Shown here one piece after another: positions 3,526-22,398 of a stretch of 64,000 bases of DNA. This DNA is from Melioribacteraceae bacterium (GTDB lineage Bacteria > Bacteroidota > Ignavibacteria > Ignavibacteriales > Melioribacteraceae). The translations under genes were made by a program, and so were the position numbers. The notes beneath the pieces were generated by a model that made no database searches, had not been told where the DNA came from, and saw only the letters and a program-made list of their open reading frames with translations. The DNA lies in assembly GCA_021740785.1 (NCBI GenBank), contig JAIOZI010000005.1, positions 1-64,000 of the forward strand, in the 5' to 3' direction. Within the stretch, counting starts at the first letter, position 1. Each line of letters starts with the position of its first letter.

Positions 3526-3843
3526 TTAGTTGTCATCTTTCTGTGCAACGATAGTAGCAATTGCAGATCTTTCGAATTTCATTTTAACATTGTTGCCGAC
3601 ATCAAGCAGACATGTTTTTTCATCCAATCCCGAAACAGTAGCATGCAATCCTCCGCTTGTGATAATTTTATCACCTTTCTTAATTGCGGATAACATTGCT
3701 TCACGTTCCTTTGCTTTCTTTTGCTGAGGTCTGATAATCATAAAATAAAATATTGCAAAGATAGCACCGAACATTATCAAGGTACTTACAAGACTTCCTC
3801 CGCCGTCACCGCCTTGCGGAGCCATCGCTAAAAGATAGTTCAC
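3526..3843 (-). CDS. yajC: Preprotein translocase accessory subunit YajC
   Basis: This 105-residue protein has one N-terminal membrane helix (about 20-40), then IIRPQQKKAKEREAML and a small basic cytoplasmic domain with the conserved GDKIITSGGLHATV block (about 56-70). YajC joins SecD/SecF in the Sec holo-translocon. The start is GTG at 3843, immediately after the TAA of tgt. A strong GAGGAGGAAT ribosome-binding site lies inside the end of tgt, so the pair is translationally linked. The tgt-yajC order is classic, but the usual secD-secF continuation is absent here. Confidence 0.95.
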   Translation of the reverse strand: MNYLLAMAPQGGDGGGSLVSTLIMFGAIFAIFYFMIIRPQQKKAKEREAMLSAIKKGDKIITSGGLHATVSGLDEKTCLLDVGNNVKMKFERSAIATIVAQKDDN

Positions 3844-5494: not shown

Positions 5495-5524
5495 TAAAAA
5501 TCCCGGCTAATATTTTACCGGGAT
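5495..5524 (-). terminator. Rho-independent terminator after isocitrate dehydrogenase
   Basis: On the minus strand ATCCCGG (5524-5518) pairs with CCGGGAT (5506-5500) around an 11-nt loop and is followed by a T-run. It separates the dehydrogenase from the DCC-tgt-yajC transcript. Confidence 0.8.
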
Positions 5525-5576
5525 CATTCAATTGAATTTGTCAAATAACAAACTGAGGAGCAGACAATGTTTTGAA

Positions 5577-7805
5577 TTACATTGAATCAATAATCGCATT
5601 TAACGTGGCGCTGGGACGCATAATCTTCTCCGTTTTTTCTTGATCCGGATAAAAATAACCGCCCAAATCAGCCGGCGCTCCCTGTGCTGCAAGAAGTTCT
5701 TCATTTATTTTCGCTTCGTTTTCTCTCAACTTTGCTGCTAATTCAGTAAAGCGTTTTTTCATCTGATCATCTTTATCCTGAGAGGAAAGTTCTTCTGCCC
5801 AGTACAATGCTAAATAAAATGAACTACCTCTATTATCTATCTCATTAACTTTACGAGAAGGAGTTTTTTCATTTTCAAGATATTTCCCGACTGCAATGTC
5901 TAATGTTTCAGCAAGAATGTTTGCTTTTGGATTACCGGTCTTCTCTGCCGCCAATTCAAGTGACGGAACCAATGCACAATACTCACCCAGTGAATCCCAT
6001 CGCAGGTGACCTTCTTTGAGCATCTGCTGAACATGTTTAGGAGCTGAACCGCCTGCCCCGGTTTCAAATAATCCGCCTCCGTTTAAAAGCGGAACAATCG
6101 ACAGCATTCTGGCGCTCGTACCAAGTTCCAATATTGGAAATAAATCCGTTAGGTAATCACGTAATACATTTCCGGTGACTGAAATTGTATCAAGACCTTT
6201 TCTTACTCTCTCCAATGTGAATTTCATTGCATCAACAGGTTTCATGATTCTTATATCGAGTCCGGTTGTATCATGATCCGGTAAATACATATTAACTTTT
6301 TTTATTATCTCCGCATCATGTCCCCTATTTTCATCCAGCCAAAATACTGTAGGATAACCGGTTGCTCTTGCTCTGCTTACAGCTAATTTAACCCAATCTT
6401 TAATAGCTTCGTCTTTTGCCTGGCATGCGCGGAAAACATCACCTTTCTCAACAATTTGTTCCAGAACCGATTCGCCGGATAGTTTTACGATTTTCATCTT
6501 ACCTTCTGCAGGCGCTTCGAATGTTTTATCGTGTGAACCGTATTCTTCAGCTTTCTTTGCCATCAGCCCGACATTAGATACACTTCCCATCGTTGCAGGA
6601 TTAAATTGACCCTTCTCCTTGGCATCTTCAATTATCTCACTATACATTGTCGCATAACATCTGTCCGGGACCATTGCAATTACATCCTGAAGCTGATCGT
6701 TTTTATTCCACATCTTCCCTCCGTCTCGAACAACATTAGGCATAGATGCATCAACAATAATATCGTTCGGTTTATGAAGATTCGTGATGCCCTTGCTTGA
6801 ATCAACCATTGCAAGATCGGGACGGGTTTCATATACTTTGTTTATTTCCGCTTCTATCTCCGACTTTTTATCAGCGGGCAATTTTTCTAATTTTGCCAAA
6901 ACACCCGATAAACCGTTATTTACATTTGCGCCAATTTCTTGTAAAACATCAGTATGTTTTTCAAGTGCATCTTTGTAAAAGACCGATACACAATGACCGA
7001 ACATTATCGGATCGGAAATTTTCATCATTGTTGCCTTAAGGTGAAGCGACAACAGCACGTCATCTTTTTTTGCTTCTTCTATCTGTTCGGCATAGAATTT
7101 TCTCAATTCAGCAACATTCATAACTGATGCATCAATTACCTCTCCCTCAAGAAGTGATAACTTTTCTTTAAGGATTTCAACATTTCCGTCTTTGTCCTCA
7201 AATTCAATACGCACATCGCATGGTTCATTAATCGTAACCGATTTTTCGGTTTCGTAAAAATCCTTTCCCGACATATAAGCAACGCGGGCTTTTGATCCGG
7301 ATTCGGGCCATGGCTTCATCATTTTATGCGGATGCTGTTTTGCAAATTTCTTAACCGATGCCGCTGCTCTTCTGTCTGCATTTCCCTCTCTTAAAACGGG
7401 ATTTACTGCCGAACCGAGCACTTTGCTAAATCGTTTTTTCAGTTCTTTCTCTTCTTCGGTTTTTGCTTCTTCCGGGTAATCCGGAATATCGTAACCCTTT
7501 TCCTGAAGTTCTTTTATAGCAGCTTGAAGCTGGGGAATTGATGCACTGATATTCGGAAGTTTTATGATATTTGCTTCGGGAGTTTTTGCCAGTTTACCGA
7601 GTTCTTCCAAGTAATCCGGTATTTTTTGTTCTTCCGTTAATCTTTCCGGGAAGTTGGCGATGATTCTGCCTGCCAGTGAAATATCCTTTGTTTCAAAATC
7701 AATTCCTGTTCCTTTTGTGAATGCCTTAAAAATCGGCAGCAAACAATAAGATGCAAGCGCGGGGGCTTCGTCAATCTGTGTCCAAATAATTTTATAATCA
7801 GTCAT
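5577..7805 (-). CDS. icd: Monomeric NADP-dependent isocitrate dehydrogenase
   Basis: At 742 residues it matches the monomeric (about 80 kDa) class rather than the 45-kDa dimeric class. Motifs typical of that class are visible: NISASIPQL (about 105-113), [14 protein letters not shown] (substrate and metal region), FGHCVSVFY, and [13 protein letters not shown] near residue 590. It converts isocitrate to 2-oxoglutarate and CO2 with NADP+, providing NADPH in the TCA cycle. The ATG start has an AGGAATG ribosome-binding site. It is transcribed alone, with a terminator directly after it, and follows the large gene-free repeat region. Confidence 0.97.
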
Positions 7806-9390: not shown

Positions 9391-10020
9391 GATGAATGAT
9401 GATTGACGATTGATGAATGACTATTGACAATTATTGAAAGATGAACCGCATTGCTTTTCACCCTATGCCCTATGCCCTTTGCCCCGCCTTTCACCGTTAA
9501 CCGTTCACCACTTCTCCTTTTCCCCTTTGCGCTTTGCCCTTGTCTTTGTTCTGTCCTTTCTGATTTTTGTTTTTTTGCACAGTGGGATTTTTGCTTTTTG
9601 CTTTTTGTTTTTTGCTTTTTGTTTCTTGATACTTGATACTTGCTACTTGATACTTGCTACTTGTTTCTTGAGTTTTATTTCTTTGCTTTTTCTCTCTCTG
9701 TTCTTTGCGCCATGCGCTTTGCCTTTCACCGTTAACCGTGCACCAATTCTCCCTTTCTCCCTTTCGAAGACAACACTTCATCCTTAGCTTTTCACCCCTT
9801 TGCTCTCTGCTCTCTGCGCTCTGCGCTTTGCCCTTGTCTTTGCTCTGTCCTTTCTGATTTTTGTTTTTTTGCACAGTGGGATTTTTGCTTTTTGTTTTTT
9901 GCTTTTTGTTTTTTGCTTTTTGTTTCTTGATACTTGATACTTGATACTTGATACTTGTTTCTTAAGTCTTACTTCTTACGTCTAAGCTTTTCACCCTTTG
10001 CGCTATGCCCTATGCGCTCT
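9391..10020. repeat. Mosaic of degenerate 7-bp tandem repeats (STRR-like)
   Basis: Successive blocks keep a 7-bp period while the heptamer changes. Blocks are: GATGAAT/GACGATT types at 9391-9432; CCCTATG at 9461-9481; TTCACCG then CTTTGCG/CTTTGCC at 9490-9545; twelve in-phase units TTTTTGC/TTTTTGT then TACTTGA/TACTTGC at 9588-9671; and CTCTGCG types near 9800-9830. Then comes a second poly-heptamer block at 9882-9986, then CCCTTTG/CGCTATG near 9997. A stretch beginning CTTTGCCCTTGTCT is repeated at 9532 and 9826 (offset 294 bp). Frames here are low-complexity artefacts. The pattern resembles the heptanucleotide STRR families of filamentous cyanobacteria; function is unknown. Confidence 0.8.
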
Positions 10021-10116
10021 ACATAAAACCAATATTGATTACAGACAAAAAAGATTTGAAATTAATTAAGTTTTACATTAATTTGTGTTCAGTTTTGAAT
10101 TTGAGGGAGTTGGAAC

Positions 10117-10374
10117 TTGAATCCATTTACTTTTCTTCTTGATTTACATTTCGGTGATTTACTTCTAATCAGCACTCGACTATTATATAATGATAAATTA
10201 CAGCAGCCGCAAAAAGAGAGAACAAAAGGATTAGTATATTTATTATCATTTACTGAACCGGATAACAGCAAGTACAGTTATCCAAGTTCAACGGTCTGTC
10301 TAACTATATTTGCTAAAAAAGATGTTGATAATAATTATGAAGGCTCCTATATTGGGTCTAGTATTAAGCGCTAG
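10117..10374 (+). CDS. Hypothetical small protein, doubtful
   Basis: The 85-residue frame starts at TTG with a good GAGGGAG ribosome-binding site seven bases upstream, and ends 23 bp before the next gene. The sequence has normal residue composition (MNPFTFLLDLHFGDLLLIS at the start) but matches no family I recognise. The TTG start and small size leave real doubt; it could be chance sequence or the remnant of a gene. It sits between the heptamer-repeat region and the MazEF-type pair, at the edge of the accessory island. Confidence 0.35.
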   Translation: MNPFTFLLDLHFGDLLLISTRLLYNDKLQQPQKERTKGLVYLLSFTEPDNSKYSYPSSTVCLTIFAKKDVDNNYEGSYIGSSIKR

Positions 10375-10397: not shown

Positions 10398-10631
10398 ATG
10401 CAACAAGCTAAAATAAGCTTCGATGAAAGCCAAATAAATTTTTTAAATAAATACAGAGAACTTGGTTTTAAAGATAAAAGTTCATTAGTACGTTCTGCTA
10501 TGGAAGAATTTATTAAATCAGTAGAAAAACAAAAGTTGGAAAAATCAGCTAAGCTATATGCAGAGATTTATAATGAAGATGCGGATTTACACGATTTAAC
10601 AAATTCTGCAATTGAGGATTGGCCTAAATGA
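10398..10631 (+). CDS. Antitoxin of a MazF-type pair, ribbon-helix-helix-like
   Basis: The 77-residue protein has an N-terminal stretch KISFDESQINFLNKY, then SSLVRSAMEEFIKS, in the style of a ribbon-helix-helix (CopG/MetJ-like) DNA-binding antitoxin. The acidic, flexible C-terminus (YNEDADLHDLTNSAIEDW) would mask the toxin. The start has an AGGAG ribosome-binding site. Its TGA overlaps the ATG of the toxin gene (ATGA), the usual coupling of such pairs. By family analogy it should neutralise the neighbouring RNase and repress the operon. The gene pair lies in an integron-like cassette region. Confidence 0.8.
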   Translation: MQQAKISFDESQINFLNKYRELGFKDKSSLVRSAMEEFIKSVEKQKLEKSAKLYAEIYNEDADLHDLTNSAIEDWPK

Positions 10632-10984
10632 AATCGGTAAAGAGAGGAATGGTCATTGATATAAATTTAAATCCAGTAAAAGGTTCCGAAACTGGTAAAA
10701 TTAGACCTTGCATTGTTGTCACAAATGATGTTTACAACCAAAACCTTCCGGTAATTCAAGTTGTTCCAATTACTTCATGGAATGAAAAAAAATCTCAAAT
10801 TTCGACAAACGTTTTTCTCGAACCTTCTAAAGAAAATGGTCTGACTAAAAAATCCATTGCAGATTGCCTTCAAACTCGACCGATAGATTATCAACATAGA
10901 TTAGTAAAAATTCGTGGTCAAATTTCTCCAAACGAACTCATTGAAATAGACCGTGGATTGAAATTGGTTTTTGGTTTATTTTGA
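10628..10984 (+). CDS. MazF/PemK-type mRNA interferase toxin
   Basis: The 118-residue protein begins with the family signature: KRGMVIDINLNPVKGSETGK, then RPCIVVTNDVYN, VIQVVPITSW and RLVKIRGQIS. The R in KIRPC, the serine/threonine in VVPITS, and the beta-barrel order fit MazF/PemK endoribonucleases that cut mRNA at short sequences. The gene overlaps its antitoxin gene by 4 bp. Downstream is an attC-like hairpin region (10985-11117). Toxin-antitoxin pairs are common stabilising cargo in cassette arrays. Confidence 0.92.
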   Translation: MKSVKRGMVIDINLNPVKGSETGKIRPCIVVTNDVYNQNLPVIQVVPITSWNEKKSQISTNVFLEPSKENGLTKKSIADCLQTRPIDYQHRLVKIRGQISPNELIEIDRGLKLVFGLF

Positions 10985-11117
10985 CTGTATGTAAATATAA
11001 CCAGCTCTCAACCCACCCGCGATATTCAAGCGGGGTTGAGTGCAGCCCGCAAAAAAGACGGCGGGTAAATCTGGGCGGCGCCTATCTGCTGGTAGGCATG
11101 GGTTATTTGCAATGCCG
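10985..11117. other. attC-like recombination site after the MazF-type gene
   Basis: The segment ends in GGTTATTTGCAATGCC followed by the core GTTAGCA (11117-11123), and resembles the L'-R' end of integron attC sites. Inside are stacked inverted repeats: CTCAACCC...GGGTTGAG, then CCCGC...GCGGG, then GCCTATC-TGCT-GGTAGGC, enclosed by AAATATAACC...GGGTTATTT. An exact R'' box complementary to a cassette start further upstream was not found, so this site is less certain than the one at 13687. Confidence 0.45.
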
Positions 11118-11146
11118 TTAGCATGTTAAAAATAAAGGAGTAAAAA

Positions 11147-11908
11147 GTGATTCTTAAAGCTACAAGACATGCATCATCATATGAAAACTTTGAAGTCTAT
11201 TGTCCTTATTGTAATTATCATAATATTTTTAACCGTGCAACGGATATTAAAAATTTTAAATTAATTCTCAACAAAGAAGTAAAATGTCAAAATGAACGAT
11301 GCCAGAAAATATTTCAAATAGGTGGTGATGATATCAGCCATGCCTGGAAGATGTTAATTATAGATTGTTTCAAATTAAAAAGACAGAAGCTATATACAAA
11401 CTGTATTTTAAATTTATGCCAATCTGTTGAAATGTATTTTGCCTTATTTCTTAGAGTAAACCTTCTTTATAAACCTTTTTATAAAGAGGATAGCTATAAT
11501 TTAAAATACTTAAATGAATTAAAAAATTTACTATATAACAAAGTCAAAGAATGGACATATTATCCACTTTATAAGACATTTTTAAATTGTATATGCCAGC
11601 AAATTAAACCGCAAACTCTTATTGAAAGTGAAAGTATTATAAATAATTTATCCATAAATTCAAAAACAGAACCGAGTGACTCAATCATTAACAACATTAA
11701 AGACGAAAAACTATCAAAAACATTAATTCAATTGAAACGGACTAACATTTCTAGTTTACGTAATAAGGTTGTTCATAAAGAGGGTTATCGGCCTACCTTA
11801 GATGAAGTTGAAAAATCAGAAAGAGAAATTTCTGAGATATTATATAGCTTAGATAGTTGTTTCCGTGTGTTAACTGATAATTTTTATTTTTATGAAACTA
11901 ACTTATAA
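11147..11908 (+). CDS. Zinc-ribbon plus HEPN-like protein (putative RNase or defence cargo)
   Basis: This 253-residue protein is of unknown function. An N-terminal zinc ribbon is suggested by CPYC and CQNERC (about 19-22 and 47-52). The helical remainder contains LYTNCILNLCQSVEMYF and, near residue 205, LRNKVVH, an R-x4-H pattern like the catalytic motif of HEPN-domain RNases. The HEPN call rests on that motif and the helical pattern and is inference. The start is GTG with an AAAGGAG ribosome-binding site. The gene begins 29 bp after the attC-like core at 11117, as cassette genes usually do. A box at 11919-11927 is the exact 9-bp complement of the cassette's first bases (11117-11125). Confidence 0.6.
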   Translation: MILKATRHASSYENFEVYCPYCNYHNIFNRATDIKNFKLILNKEVKCQNERCQKIFQIGGDDISHAWKMLIIDCFKLKRQKLYTNCILNLCQSVEMYFALFLRVNLLYKPFYKEDSYNLKYLNELKNLLYNKVKEWTYYPLYKTFLNCICQQIKPQTLIESESIINNLSINSKTEPSDSIINNIKDEKLSKTLIQLKRTNISSLRNKVVHKEGYRPTLDEVEKSEREISEILYSLDSCFRVLTDNFYFYETNL

Positions 11909-11919
11909 TATTTAAAAAC

Positions 11920-12219
11920 ATGCTAACAATTTTTAATTACGTGGATGCAGAATCTCTCGTAATGCGCGGGGAAGAGGATTTCAGATTACGTATTGTAAAT
12001 CCAAACATAATTAACAAAATACAATTATATCTCACGGGAAGAGTTACAAAAGGAGTACAAATAATTGGGGTTGGACCTTTTGCAATGCGAGCTTATTATT
12101 CATTGGCTGAATATAGTAGATTAGTTGGCAAAGCTTTGGAAAATAAATACATGGTATATATAAAAAAAGATGGTAAAGTATTTCAAAAAGGAGAATGGTA
12201 TTTAGAATTCAAGCTGTGA
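11920..12219 (+). CDS. Hypothetical protein in the cassette region
   Basis: This 99-residue frame is not recognised. It contains GEEDFRLRIVNPNI and YMVYIKKDGKVF, and ends KGEWYLEFKL, so it looks like a small folded alpha/beta protein rather than random translation. Its ATG lies within the R''-like box CATGCTAAC (11919-11927) and has no clear ribosome-binding site. Either translation is weak, or the frame is the 3' part of a gene brought in by a rearrangement that broke the attC site of the preceding cassette. Confidence 0.5.
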   Translation: MLTIFNYVDAESLVMRGEEDFRLRIVNPNIINKIQLYLTGRVTKGVQIIGVGPFAMRAYYSLAEYSRLVGKALENKYMVYIKKDGKVFQKGEWYLEFKL

Positions 12220-12282
12220 TAAATTTGAGTTCAATAGATGTTTAGATTTTCAATTTAGTGCAAATACAACCAAACCAGCGGC

Positions 12283-12440
12283 GCCAAAAACCACTATTGA
12301 AAAAGGCTGGATATGTGTTAGAAAGAAGATTCCTAAAATTTGAAAGAATTGAATAACATAGCCGTGGTCATTTTCTTTTTGAATACGGCTTGCCGTTCCT
12401 CTGAAATGACAAGGGCTTTATGGAGGACTCACGCTGACTG
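12283..12440 (+). repeat. Three-copy dispersed repeat (copy 1)
   Basis: About 150 bp here (AAAAACCACTAT, GGATATGTGTTAGAAAG, TTTCTTTTTGAATACG, GCCGTTCCTCTGAAA) recurs at 14653-14805 and partly at 22244-22320. In one frame the copies translate to a shared peptide, LKKAGYVLERRFLKFE. This recalls the last strand of GNAT acetyltransferases (S-x-x-x-L-x-K-x-G-[FY]). That similarity is weak, and copies 1 and 2 carry different changes. Copy 1 lies directly before an attC-like end. Confidence 0.6.
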
Positions 12441-12597
12441 CTTTTTTCGCTTCGACTTTTGTGCAGTTTTTAAGTTTGTATCTCTGTTTAAAGTTTCTCG
12501 TTCAAAGTAGTTCTAATAAAAAATATTTTAAATAATTATCGGCATTTGTGGTCTTGCTGTATTTCTTGCTCTTGGCAGCAGCTTAACCGCAACGTCG
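12425..12597. other. attC-like recombination site (left boundary of the barrel-gene cassette)
   Basis: The 3' end GCTTAACCGCAACGTC followed by GTTAGGC (12597-12603) fits the integron L'-R' arrangement, with R' matching GTTRRRY exactly. Part of the loop (GACTCACGCTGACTGC, TTCGACTTTTG, GTGCAGTT) resembles the loop of the next site at 13687-13815, so the two are homologous. The 5' R'' box is missing; the dispersed repeat ends where it should be. Confidence 0.55.
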
Positions 12598-12624
12598 TTA
12601 GGCAGTTAAATTAAGAGGGAAAAA

Positions 12625-13685
12625 ATGTTCAAAAAATGTTTTGTTTCTTTTGTTTTGATTTTGATACTTAACAGTATAATGCCGGGGCAGATATACCGCG
12701 GGGAGTATGATTTACTTTTCTTCAATCGAGAAACTAGCTCAGCGGCAGAAGCCACAGGAAAGATTCATTTACAAAATTGGAATGATGCCTCTACTTCCCT
12801 TTCCAATCCTGCTTACACGGGTAATGCAAATTATGTCGGGGGTTTTTATTCTTATACAAGTGATTTGTATTCAGCTAAAGAAGCAAATCAAGTTTTTTAT
12901 GCAGTCAACATACCAATAAAAAATTTTGGCAATTTTTCACTTTCACGGTGGTCATTTGATTTTGGACAAGATATTCCAATAACTACTAGAACCAATCCTT
13001 ATGGCACTGGAGAAACAATTCGTCCAAAACTTACAAATTATAATATAACTTATGCTAAGGTATTTTTTAATTCATTAGGCGCCGGCATTGGAATTAATTA
13101 TTTTGCGGATGATTTTCTAGTTAAAGATCGTGATTATTTTTCATTTAATATAAGCGCTAACTATAAATACATCATTGATTCTTCGGAATTATCTTCACAT
13201 AATGTTTTTTTAGTACGAGCATACAAAACATTTTTTACATTAGTTCAACAAATGAAGATACTTTTCTTTTAACGGGCGAAGAAATTAAATACTCGTTACC
13301 GCAGATTAGTCATTGGAACGTCGGTTATTTGTTTTTATATAATGGGTTTAATCTAGCTCAAGACTCTAATGACATTGAGGCTTCATTTAGTATTGAATAT
13401 TTAGATGCTCTTAATTCTTCTAAATACTTCGGATTTAAGTTTGGGTCAGAAATTAGTGTTATCGAATTCTTAAAGTTACGTTTTGGCTACTATTCGCTTG
13501 AACTTCAGAGAGATAAACACGAGGAATTAACTTATGGAATCGGATTAAATATCCCATTTTACAAATTATTAAATTTTCCAATTGTTCTAGCTATAGATTA
13601 TCTCAATCTCAATCAACCTGCCTTTAAAAGGGATGAATACAGTTTTGAGTTTTTCACAATAAAAGTGAATTATATTTTAAACTAA
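12625..13685 (+). pseudogene. Outer-membrane beta-barrel protein, frameshifted at a T7 run
   Basis: Two frames, 12625-13272 and an overlapping frame ending at 13685, together encode one secreted barrel-like protein of about 350 residues. It has a signal peptide (ILILNSIMPGQ), aromatic alternating strands, and a last strand ending FFTIKVNYILN. Past about 13212 the second frame reads on sensibly (ISSTNEDTFLLTGEE). One extra T in the run of seven T at 13205-13211 would restore a single reading frame. The pattern NPAY and short amphipathic strands recall PorV/PorP-like barrels, but that is a guess. The gene fills one integron-like cassette (12598-13815). The break could be mutation, phase variation or sequencing error. 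Confidence 0.7.
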
Positions 13686-13686
13686 A

Positions 13687-13815
13687 CTGCCTAACATGCG
13701 ACTCAAATCTGAAGCCTTTCAAGCGTTCGATTTTTGCATCGTGCAGTTATTATAAATTATTGATAAATAAGAAAAGTAAAAATATGGTGGTCGGCGCAGT
13801 TTAGCGGCAACACTA
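13687..13815. other. attC-like recombination site of the barrel-gene cassette
   Basis: CTGCCTAAC (13687-13695) is the exact 9-bp reverse complement of the bases at the cassette start, GTTAGGCAG (12597-12605), as R'' and R' must be. The site ends in GCAGTTTAGCGGCAACACT then ATTAGCT (13815-13821). GCGACTCAAATCTG and CAGTTTAGCGGC can pair as L''/L' with bulged bases. The core begins with A rather than the almost invariant G, so the right junction may be decayed. Confidence 0.6.
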
Positions 13816-13835
13816 TTAGCTGATAAGTTTGTGAA

Positions 13836-14102
13836 TTACTTGAAAAGTTCTGAATGTGAGCCCGTTCTTTCTAAAATTAATACATTATTAGTGATTTGAT
13901 AAATGAGAACCCAATCCGGTTCAATATGACAATCTCTAAATGATTTCCATCTTCCAGAGAGTTTGTGGTCTTTATATTTAGTTGGTAATGATTCATTATT
14001 CAGTAAAGCTATAACGACAGTTTCTAATTGTGATATATCTTTACCTTGAAGTTTAATTTTCTTGTAATCTTTCTTGAATTGTGAAGAATAAATTAATCTC
14101 AA
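13836..14102 (-). CDS. RelE/YafQ-family mRNA interferase toxin
   Basis: The 88-residue protein has the YafQ-type pattern: SSQFKKDYKKIK, DHKLSGRWKSFRDCHIEPDW, VLIYQI and a terminal LERTGSHSELF. The histidines and arginine of the HKL/RDCHI region fit ribosome-dependent mRNA cleavage. It overlaps the antitoxin gene by 4 bp and is transcribed against the cassette direction from the pair's own promoter, a normal arrangement for toxin-antitoxin cassettes. Confidence 0.93.
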   Translation of the reverse strand: MRLIYSSQFKKDYKKIKLQGKDISQLETVVIALLNNESLPTKYKDHKLSGRWKSFRDCHIEPDWVLIYQITNNVLILERTGSHSELFK

Positions 14103-14359
14103 TTATCAAGTTCCTTGAAAAGTTGTTTAACATCAGAGACTTCATGAAGCCCTTCACCTTTTTCAGATTTCCGAAGAGTTTCTTCCGTTGTTTTGTTGGG
14201 AACTTTTATCTCAAAAGGAATTCCTTTATTCAAAGAAACTTGAGTTAGGAAAATAGAGATTGCTTCTGACATAGAGATATTAAGTTTATTAAGAACCCTT
14301 TGAGCACTGCTCTTTACTTTGGGATCAATTCTTGTTTGTATTGTTGCTGTTTTATTCAT
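14099..14359 (-). CDS. RelB/DinJ-family antitoxin
   Basis: The 86-residue protein begins with MNKTATIQTRIDPKVKSSA and SMSEAISIFLTQVSLNKGIPFE, the ribbon-helix-helix signature of RelB/DinJ antitoxins. The C-terminus EVSDVKQLFKELDN would wrap the toxin. It should neutralise the YafQ-like toxin and autorepress the pair. Its promoter should lie in 14360-14440. An R''-like box CAGCTAAC follows at 14442, completing the cassette that starts at 13816. Confidence 0.92.
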   Translation of the reverse strand: MNKTATIQTRIDPKVKSSAQRVLNKLNISMSEAISIFLTQVSLNKGIPFEIKVPNKTTEETLRKSEKGEGLHEVSDVKQLFKELDN

Positions 14360-14441
14360 TTTGTATTCTCAAATAATTGTCATTACAATTGCACTACAAT
14401 TTAAGAAAGGAAAAGTTCCAGATCAAGTAATGAATTTTAAG

Positions 14442-14449
14442 CAGCTAAC
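14442..14449. other. R''-like box of the toxin-antitoxin cassette
   Basis: CAGCTAAC is the reverse complement of GTTAGCTG. The cassette start at 13815-13822 reads ATTAGCTG, a 7/8 match. No L'-R' end is visible downstream before the dispersed repeat at 14653, so the attC appears truncated and the array ends here. Confidence 0.4.
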
Positions 14450-14911
14450 CAGGTACTGTGTTAAAAATCAACTATAAAAATACAGAAAAATTTCAAAGAG
14501 CATTAATACAAAACGTGTGTTTTGATTGGTTTATAGATTATCATAATTTAGGATATAAATTGTATCTTTTTTCATAAGGTATAAATAAGAAGAAGCAATT
14601 TCCTAGCTATTGCAATTAAAGCAGCTTTTTTATTTTTTGATTATGCCGATAAGTGCATGTCAAAAACCACTATCGAAAAAAGATGGATATGTGTTAGAAA
14701 GAAGATTCCTAAAATTTGAAAGAATTGAACACCAAAGCCGTTTTCATTTTCTTTTTGAATACGTCTATGCCGTTCCTCTGAAAAGACAATTGCTTGATGG
14801 GGCATCAACCACAATCCTACGGTGGATAAAACCCGACTGCCCCCGTTATAAAAGCCAATGCTGTGAAATTAATCTCGTACTGCTGCTACTTCAAACCCCT
14901 GCGGTTTGTAG
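14450..14911. repeat. Non-coding stretch with copy 2 of the dispersed repeat
   Basis: No credible gene is present. Positions 14653-14805 are the second copy of the 12283 repeat (same blocks GGATATGTGTTAGAAAG and GCCGTTCCTCTGAAA). A 119-codon open frame (14610-14969) crosses this copy and runs antisense into the end of the next gene. It is treated as the remnant of whatever gene the repeat came from. Confidence 0.55.
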
Positions 14912-22036: not shown

Positions 22037-22231
22037 TTAAGCGAAGCCTTTTTCAACGTAGTCGATTCCTTTAGTTATAACGTTGTAGTAAAGTACCGCA
22101 AATTTTCCTCGAAAGCGGGATTTTCCACATGCAGCATCTTTAATAGCAACTGTTAATTTTTTGCTGTATGAAGCTTCGAGAACGTAGCCATCAATTAACT
22201 CCGAGGATTCGGGGTTATTTTTACATGGGTA
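22037..22231 (-). pseudogene. Reading-frame remnant, possibly a transposase C-terminus
   Basis: A 64-codon open stretch without a start codon reads ELIDGYVLEASYSKKLTVAI, then KDAACGKSRFRGKFAVLYYN and VITKGIDYVEKGFA, then stops. It has good residue composition and the basic, aromatic look of a transposase tail. I cannot name the family. It sits next to the dispersed repeat and looks like decayed mobile DNA. Confidence 0.35.
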
Positions 22232-22243
22232 TTATCAACACAA

Positions 22244-22320
22244 AGTTGGTTTTCTTTTTGAATACGTCAATGCCGTTCCTCTGAATAGATAATGTCTTGA
22301 TGGGACACTTAAGGCGACCG
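22244..22320 (+). repeat. Three-copy dispersed repeat (copy 3, partial)
   Basis: TTTTCTTTTTGAATACGTC, then ATGCCGTTCCTCTGAA and CTTGATGGG match the 3' half of the repeats at 12283 and 14653. The 5' half is absent. The tail GACCGCCCCGAATTAAAA resembles the tail of copy 2. Confidence 0.6.
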
Positions 22321-22398
22321 CCCCGAATTAAAAACAGTCAGGGTAAACTTCATTCTGTTTGGGTCGTCAGACTTTATACTGCAAGGAAATAGAATAGT

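Follow-up and report, generated by a model that had tools for sequence, protein, structure and literature searches.

How does a cassette array come to stand in a genome in which no integron integrase is recognised? The question is raised by a locus on a contig (C14 in our numbering; JAIOZI010000005.1 of assembly GCA_021740785.1) of a Melioribacteraceae bacterium, of which positions 1 to 64,000 were analysed (hereafter the window). A preliminary description had seen at 10985-14449 a CALIN (cluster of attC sites lacking integron-integrases), which in IntegronFinder 2 usage means at least two attC with no integrase nearby, as worded in the part of PMC9024848 cited here. The label is right, as three attC lie within 2.9 kb with no integrase close by, but the true span is about 10.04-14.8 kb, most of the sites are damaged, and the description was incomplete: it had missed a head at 10040-10309, a MazEF-type first cassette, what is left of an attC beyond 14442 and the remaining arrays in this genome. 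Judged jointly, we consider it likely that an integrase-less integron cassette array in partial decay occupies 10.04-14.8 kb, and that it stands on a copied attI-like head and was loaded in trans by an integron integrase (IntI) that is lost or unassembled.

The first question is whether the sites are attC at all. The preliminary description had taken the complementarity of cores across genes as the key property of its sites. All the words it quoted are present at their positions and the pairs exist, but taken alone they are weak evidence, suggestive rather than proof. Over the + strand of the window we counted five complementary pairs of GTTA 9-mers against 3.48 (sd 1.97) in shuffles, 29 of 100 shuffles reaching five. 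Inside 10901-14500 there are three GTTA pairs (the two described before and one at 11353/12007) against 0.21 in shuffles, and 10 of 500 shuffles of this interval reach two or more, so that the local count is moderately unusual. With 9-mer pairs near chance over the window, the sites could be read as chance inverted words. This reading is refuted by covariance-model and half-site tests, and its probability is close to nil.

For these tests we collected 21 attC from arrays of other genomes. After one spurious site was dropped, 20 served for half-site matrices; after two more (from L040) were dropped, 18, likewise all from other genomes, served for a covariance model. The family form of attC was recognised by eye in L039. 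In G120, a relative within the family, an array in the same orientation comes after intI; its attC are about 225-230 bp long, with TAACCAGCAAATCAACCCGACCGC as an example of their left ends and GGCGGCGGGTTATTTGCAACGCCGTTA of their right ends. The family set has R''/R' and L''/L' arms with a bulged base in the L stem. In the 18-site alignment, 97.5% of stem cells are paired and 9 of 20 pairs are changed on both sides, and stem covariation is 0.390 compared to 0.080 (sd 0.016) in shuffled and at most 0.071 in slid alignments. Searches for attC by arm complementarity were abandoned: a loose version gave dozens of matches per locus and was useless, a stricter one missed real arrays, and a first right-half motif was also wrong.

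The covariance-model check proposed in the preliminary description was thus run with a model of relatives' integrase-linked attC, and all three sites match it on the + strand within 10993-13824. In the window search, where E-values are rough because of a short calibration, attC 2 (12413-12606) scored 89 bits (E 1.2e-17), attC 3 (13687-13824) 31.8 bits (E 2e-5) and attC 1 (10993-11126) 24.2 bits (E 9e-4), while the fourth-best match in the window (12.9 bits) covers loop positions only. The half-site matrices gave a concordant picture. First, when right halves are ranked over both strands of the window, the top three places go to the three described cores, with 45.1, 20.2 and 11.5 against a maximum of 14.5 in 80 shuffled strand-windows, so that the third is not significant alone. 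Second, the paired half-sites scored 48.6 at 10993-11126 and 23.2 at 13687-13824, the shuffled maximum being 5.4 (80 strand-windows). Third, neither half of attC 3 reaches significance by itself (11.6 and 11.5, with shuffled maxima of 18.3 and 14.5), but the pair does. Rigid matrices had found only attC 3 in the window, because attC 1 has a spacer shorter by one base and attC 2 lacks a left end; allowing the spacing to vary mended this. attC 1 and attC 3 align across the model ends, whereas attC 2 has the L stem and no R''. By their resemblance to attC of integrase-linked arrays, the three sites are genuine attC. Two details of their description held in part. The L'-like arm GCTTAACCGCAACGTC, which starts at 12581, is exact at the second site but not at the others. 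The R' core of attC is GTTRRRY; the cores at 11117 and 12597 carry GTT as described, whereas the third, at 13815, carries ATT.

That the window holds no integrase, as had been stated, is correct: no TIGR02249 match lies on C14, and none of the 19 candidates in the assembly, all of them scored, is over the cut-off. The functional intI of a complete integron and the intI neighbour of an attI site are both missing from this contig. Twelve recombinase matches were listed in the assembly, all without model positions 188-235, as expected of Xer and phage-type recombinases. The search for further arrays in the genome, also proposed earlier, turned up at least 25 attC hits with E no higher than 1, distributed over 12 contigs, from the scoring of 150 among 3317 candidates; 20 of the hits span the whole model. 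The window array is one of about a dozen in the genome, most of which begin with a copy of the same head.

This head is the second line of evidence. As DNA, 10040-10160 has 14 copies in the genome, and 9903-10153 or its right part is common (by BLAST) to eight other attC-bearing stretches, always upstream of attC and in the same orientation. An attC match follows within 3.5 kb on the same strand in 10 of the 14 (on C14, C81, C21, C6, C26, twice each on C70 and C106, and on C28), or in eight if only whole-model matches count, since C6 and C28 rest on partial ones. By an arithmetic estimate (14 x 3.5 kb x 25 hits over 9.7 Mb of strand), chance would give about 0.13. We examined the endings of 15 heads, namely the 14 and one on C13. 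A clear tail is present in nine, of GGCGGGTAAAATACTATAGA type or, in the window and one C70 copy, CTAACTATAT, and GTT are the next letters after the tail in six heads. On C81, C26 and C70 the first nine letters after the head complement the R'' of the first attC at 9/9 positions, and homology between heads stops at that core. A C70 copy of the same head as in the window ends at a GTTAGGCAG core matching its cassette, while in the window TTGC follows the tail where the core is expected.

Fourteen copies with a variable left boundary, several of them sharing a low-complexity tract upstream, might also be expected of an unrelated mobile repeat, a MITE (miniature inverted-repeat transposable element) or similar, inserted beside the arrays. 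Against this, the right boundary of the head is a cassette core, and its counterpart in relatives lies directly between intI and the first cassette; we hold this origin to be improbable. An off-target origin, in which IntI put cassettes at unrelated attG-like sites and CALINs arise without any attI, is listed among CALIN mechanisms in the cited part of PMC8618304 and discussed for Xanthomonas in that of PMC12444791, and attC hits on C20, C41 and C93 had no head found. But ten of 14 heads precede an attC on the same strand, and unrelated sites would not share 110-540 bp ending at the core; this origin too appears improbable, if marginally less so.

A like arrangement is seen in relatives that keep intI. 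At least 84 of 296 genomes of the phylum carry an integrase over the TIGR02249 cut-off, and of 14 genomes searched for attC, 13 have it at E 0.001 or below. In the family searches seven candidates per genome were scored for the integrase and eleven for the head, so absences there are soft; the comparison of heads used 92 of 100 attC rows, eight weak or cut rows being excluded. In G290, G035, G320 and G340, the attI beside intI recurs at the head of other arrays of the same genome, with homology ending at the GTTA core. In G290, which is one contig, a dispersed array starts with the last 66 bp of the intI frame plus attI, and is 98.8% identical to the intI locus over 256 bp, diverging exactly past GTTAG. 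In G340, a dispersed head consists of intI from which about 820 bp are missing at an AGAAC repeat; after the gap come the intI tail and attI as far as GTTA. In G346, four dispersed heads carry the intI start region joined, apparently identically, to an attI, while the attI next to its own intI differs in sequence and shares the last letters alone. The intI-deleted heads of G340 and G346 and the intI-tail-plus-attI head of G290 are thereby established, recognisable intI sequence flanking the deletion in all three. In G035, whose intI is incomplete, and in G320, stretches of the intI-adjacent attI head other arrays at 79-85% identity, and in G128 (one contig, no IntI) two arrays have a common 302-bp head at 89%. 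G070 is a partial case with no clean boundary, G120 shares 60 bp only, and in G319 the common stretch was not traced to a core. In a single case, at L184 (G340:C6) 5511-5758, an attC match of 49 bits ends 4 bp ahead of the intI-deleted head, as if the head could sit in, or move as, a cassette.

These relatives bear on two further explanations. Each array could be the remnant of a separate integron that lost intI in place, or a rearranged fragment, with no multiplication of heads. Both intI loss and rearrangement are standard explanations (PMC8618304, in the part cited), and several family genomes have attC with no IntI over the cut-off (G319, G128, G348 and G074). The four dispersed heads of G346 are nevertheless joined at what seems one intI start-attI junction, so that multiplication followed the deletion, and the heads of the window's genome are short, alike and without any intI sequence; we regard separate remnants as unlikely. 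Alternatively, intI may still be in the genome and absent from its 115-contig assembly, the array being a satellite of a live integron. The intI of relatives often lies about 250-430 bp from a contig end, which fits a repetitive attI: the assemblies of G019, G031, G047, G220, G320 and G070 break at that distance from intI, as expected if attI there is a multi-copy repeat. On the other side stand a completeness of 99.88% and the lack of any IntI match, even partial, over the IntI-specific stretch of the model, and this possibility is rather unlikely.

Judged from sequence, CALINs here appear to be arrays seated on attI platforms that have multiplied and carry no integrase, because several heads end at cores and the attI of relatives recurs at other arrays. 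This suggests that integrons in this family can spread through the genome as integrase-less heads. The head would be an attI site together with sequence upstream of it, of which copies reached many loci unaccompanied by a working intI; IntI acting in trans would have loaded cassettes onto these platforms and since been lost from the genome or be absent from the assembly; small deletions, substitutions and a frameshift would afterwards have eroded the arrays, whose retention may be favoured by the two toxin-antitoxin cassettes. For Melioribacteraceae and their order, the chances seem to us about even that intI was deleted with the promoter region and attI kept, that the resulting mini-head was copied widely, and that one IntI loads all copies in trans.

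Within the window, the array opens with an attI-like head. Four cassettes follow: one of MazEF type, one with two ORFs, one with a frameshifted membrane-protein gene and one with DinJ/YafQ in reversed orientation. The attC sites between them are of the same family as those of Melioribacteraceae integrons. Its features are as follows.

10040-10309, +: array head, a putative attI-like platform; repeated leader ending CTAACTATAT, own core lost (genome copies; C70 homologue)
10117-10374, +: ORF of 85 codons with TTG start, MNPFTFLLDLHF..., beginning in the head; no Pfam match
10398-10631, +: putative antitoxin of cassette 1, before mazF; VapB_antitoxin E 0.032, below the curated cut-off
10628-10984, +: MazF/PemK-type toxin of cassette 1; PF02452 E 8.7e-26
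10993-11126, +: attC 1, core at 11117; covariance model 24.2 bits, half-site pair 48.6
11147-11908, +: 253-codon gene of cassette 2, function unassigned, with a weak zinc-finger-like N-terminus (ORF listing, Pfam search)
11919-11927, +: R''-like CATGCTAAC, complementing the cassette 2 core at 11117 (word match)
11920-12219, +: ORF of 99 codons; no Pfam or NCBIfam match
12283-12423, +: copy of a repeat that forms the interior of a second attC family at other places in the genome (10 genome matches including itself; flanks of other copies)
12413-12606, +: attC 2, core at 12597, R'' replaced by non-pairing sequence; 89 bits, right half 45.1 (best in the window)
12625-13685, +: cassette 3 gene, membrane-protein-like; a frameshift divides it into 12625-13272 and 13329-13685, the latter with OMP_b-brl at E 0.046 (below the cut-off)
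13687-13824, +: attC 3, third core at 13815 (ATT); covariance model 31.8 bits, half-site pair 23.2
13836-14102, -: YafQ-type toxin of cassette 4, reversed; PF15738 E 4.6e-36, TIGR00053 above the cut-off
14099-14359, -: RelB/DinJ-type antitoxin of cassette 4, reversed; PF04221 E 5.1e-17, TIGR02384 above the cut-off
14442-14800, +: R'' of cassette 4 and attC remnant, right end unrecognisable; common to C106, C38, C21 and C41 from 14446 or 14448

The array is decaying: attC 2 has no R'', attC 3 has ATT, no recognisable right end follows 14442, cassette 3 is frameshifted, and the folds of attC 1 and attC 3 do not stand out from shuffles. Near the remnant the covariance model gave one match of 9.9 bits (14306-14444, E 0.98). 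attC 2 keeps L'' and L', and in the place of R'' stands CTTTATGG, the end of the repeat 12283-12423. The R'' that the preliminary description had assigned to cassette 2 at 11919 does complement the core at 11117, but lies about 0.5 kb (496 bp) upstream of the rest of its attC (12424-12606). One 496-bp insertion could have split them; alternatively, two deletions could have brought together parts of three attC sites. Neither history is proved. A group II intron or insertion sequence between 11919-11927 and attC 2 was rejected solely because no suitable ORF is present, with no dedicated search. The described gene starts 25-30 bp past the core hold for two cassettes (11147 and 12625) but not for the cassette of the third core, whose two genes are both on the - strand.

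Several observations weigh against a decayed array on a copied attI. The missing pairing R'' of attC 2 and the ATT of attC 3 are among them, and folding of the bottom strand gives attC 1 and attC 3 no significant advantage over shuffles (z -1.62 and +0.62). When the whole genome was searched, attC 1 reached only E 0.068 and attC 3 was not among the matches listed (150 of 3317 candidates scored). Four of the 14 heads (on C38, C54, C80 and C76) have no listed attC match downstream, C38 having an attC-like right half; the tail motif is missing from five of the 15 heads examined and doubtful, with three mismatches, in another; and the 9/9 core match was found in just three of the 15. The window head has lost its own core, which short slippage in TATAT repeats would explain, and we infer its use as an attachment site from the C70 homologue. 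As a protein, the head ORF recurs at 16 places in this genome, where ORF starts in other heads are similar to that at 10117, and at one weak place (E 0.0014) elsewhere among 76 genomes searched. It gave no significant match to the IntI N-terminus profile (best E 0.12), so that a derivation of the window head from an intI gene is unproven. The head was not found in the other 78 family genomes (11 candidates scored per genome) bar two short weak matches, and a 17-letter attI motif showed no enrichment across 76 genomes of the family, with 54 matches compared to 71 for the reversed pattern.

Compared with known systems, the window resembles CALINs as IntegronFinder defines them, with three attC in 2.9 kb in the same orientation and no intI nearby or, over the cut-off, genome-wide. 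It differs in starting with a repeated attI-like head, and the parts of the published CALIN descriptions cited here mention no attI. With the sedentary chromosomal integrons of Ignavibacteria it shares the attC family and a similar attI ending, while this genome has no intI and its arrays are spread over 12 contigs. Miniature non-autonomous derivatives of transposons such as MITEs have an internally deleted enzyme gene, keep the recombination site and were then multiplied. The heads of G340 and G346 show a similar deletion-then-multiplication; heads differ in being one-sided, the right end being attI with an array while the left end varies. Xanthomonas CALINs outside the ilvD locus are likewise dispersed attC clusters away from intI, but the account given in the cited part of PMC12444791 is one of ancestral activity and attG sites, not of shared attI heads.

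In the parts of these papers cited here, complete integrons occur in Ignavibacteriae (PMC9024848), public genomes hold 2961 CALINs compared to 2760 complete integrons (PMC9024848), attI sites are called poorly described outside class 1 by the IntegronFinder authors (PMC9024848), and the CALIN origins listed are off-target insertion, intI loss and rearrangement (PMC8618304). Our literature search, which did not cover subscription papers and saw others in part, turned up no account of shared attI heads of CALINs. Dispersed CALINs are already known, for example from Xanthomonas; we class the array of the window as a CALIN and its attI-like head as a new variant within the integron kind. The origin of CALINs is debated, and attI-like heads shared with the intI locus give a concrete route, the copying of attI platforms without integrase. 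This route predicts a trans-acting IntI, several expression-ready first positions per genome and assembly breaks beside attI. If it is true, a single genome would hold one integron distributed over at least a dozen landing sites, CALINs would be satellite arrays rather than mere debris, and the present genome would represent a stage past the loss of the last intI.

Around the array, Rfam at gathering thresholds gave no match within the window and no tRNA was found there. The neighbourhood of the neighbouring isocitrate dehydrogenase gene is not conserved (30 of 80 relatives' loci compared), and no empty site was obtained from it. Two records of a plasmid collection matched, each over about 100 bp of the YafQ-like stretch. 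Upstream of the head, 9400-10020 is a low-complexity tract of TTGCTTTTTG and TTGATACTTG words, similar to tracts before the head on C106, C6, C81 and C21; the copying process of heads may have carried such tracts along. On C106, a site of the second attC family (3547-3693) scored 22.6 bits with the covariance model. A repeat ending TGCCGTTCCTCTGAAA...CTT(T/G)ATGG has three copies in the window, with ends at 12423/12424, 14800/14801 and 22303/22304, each followed by a different attC-left-half-like sequence without the TAAC of R''. The last of these copies stands by itself at 22150-22350, 7.4 kb past the array, as a remnant of the repeat joined to an attC-like left half, without a covariance-model match. 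Finally, a second MazF-like frame lies in another array of the genome, L102 (C21) at 12146-12478, on the strand opposite to its array, and is 35% identical to the MazF of the window.

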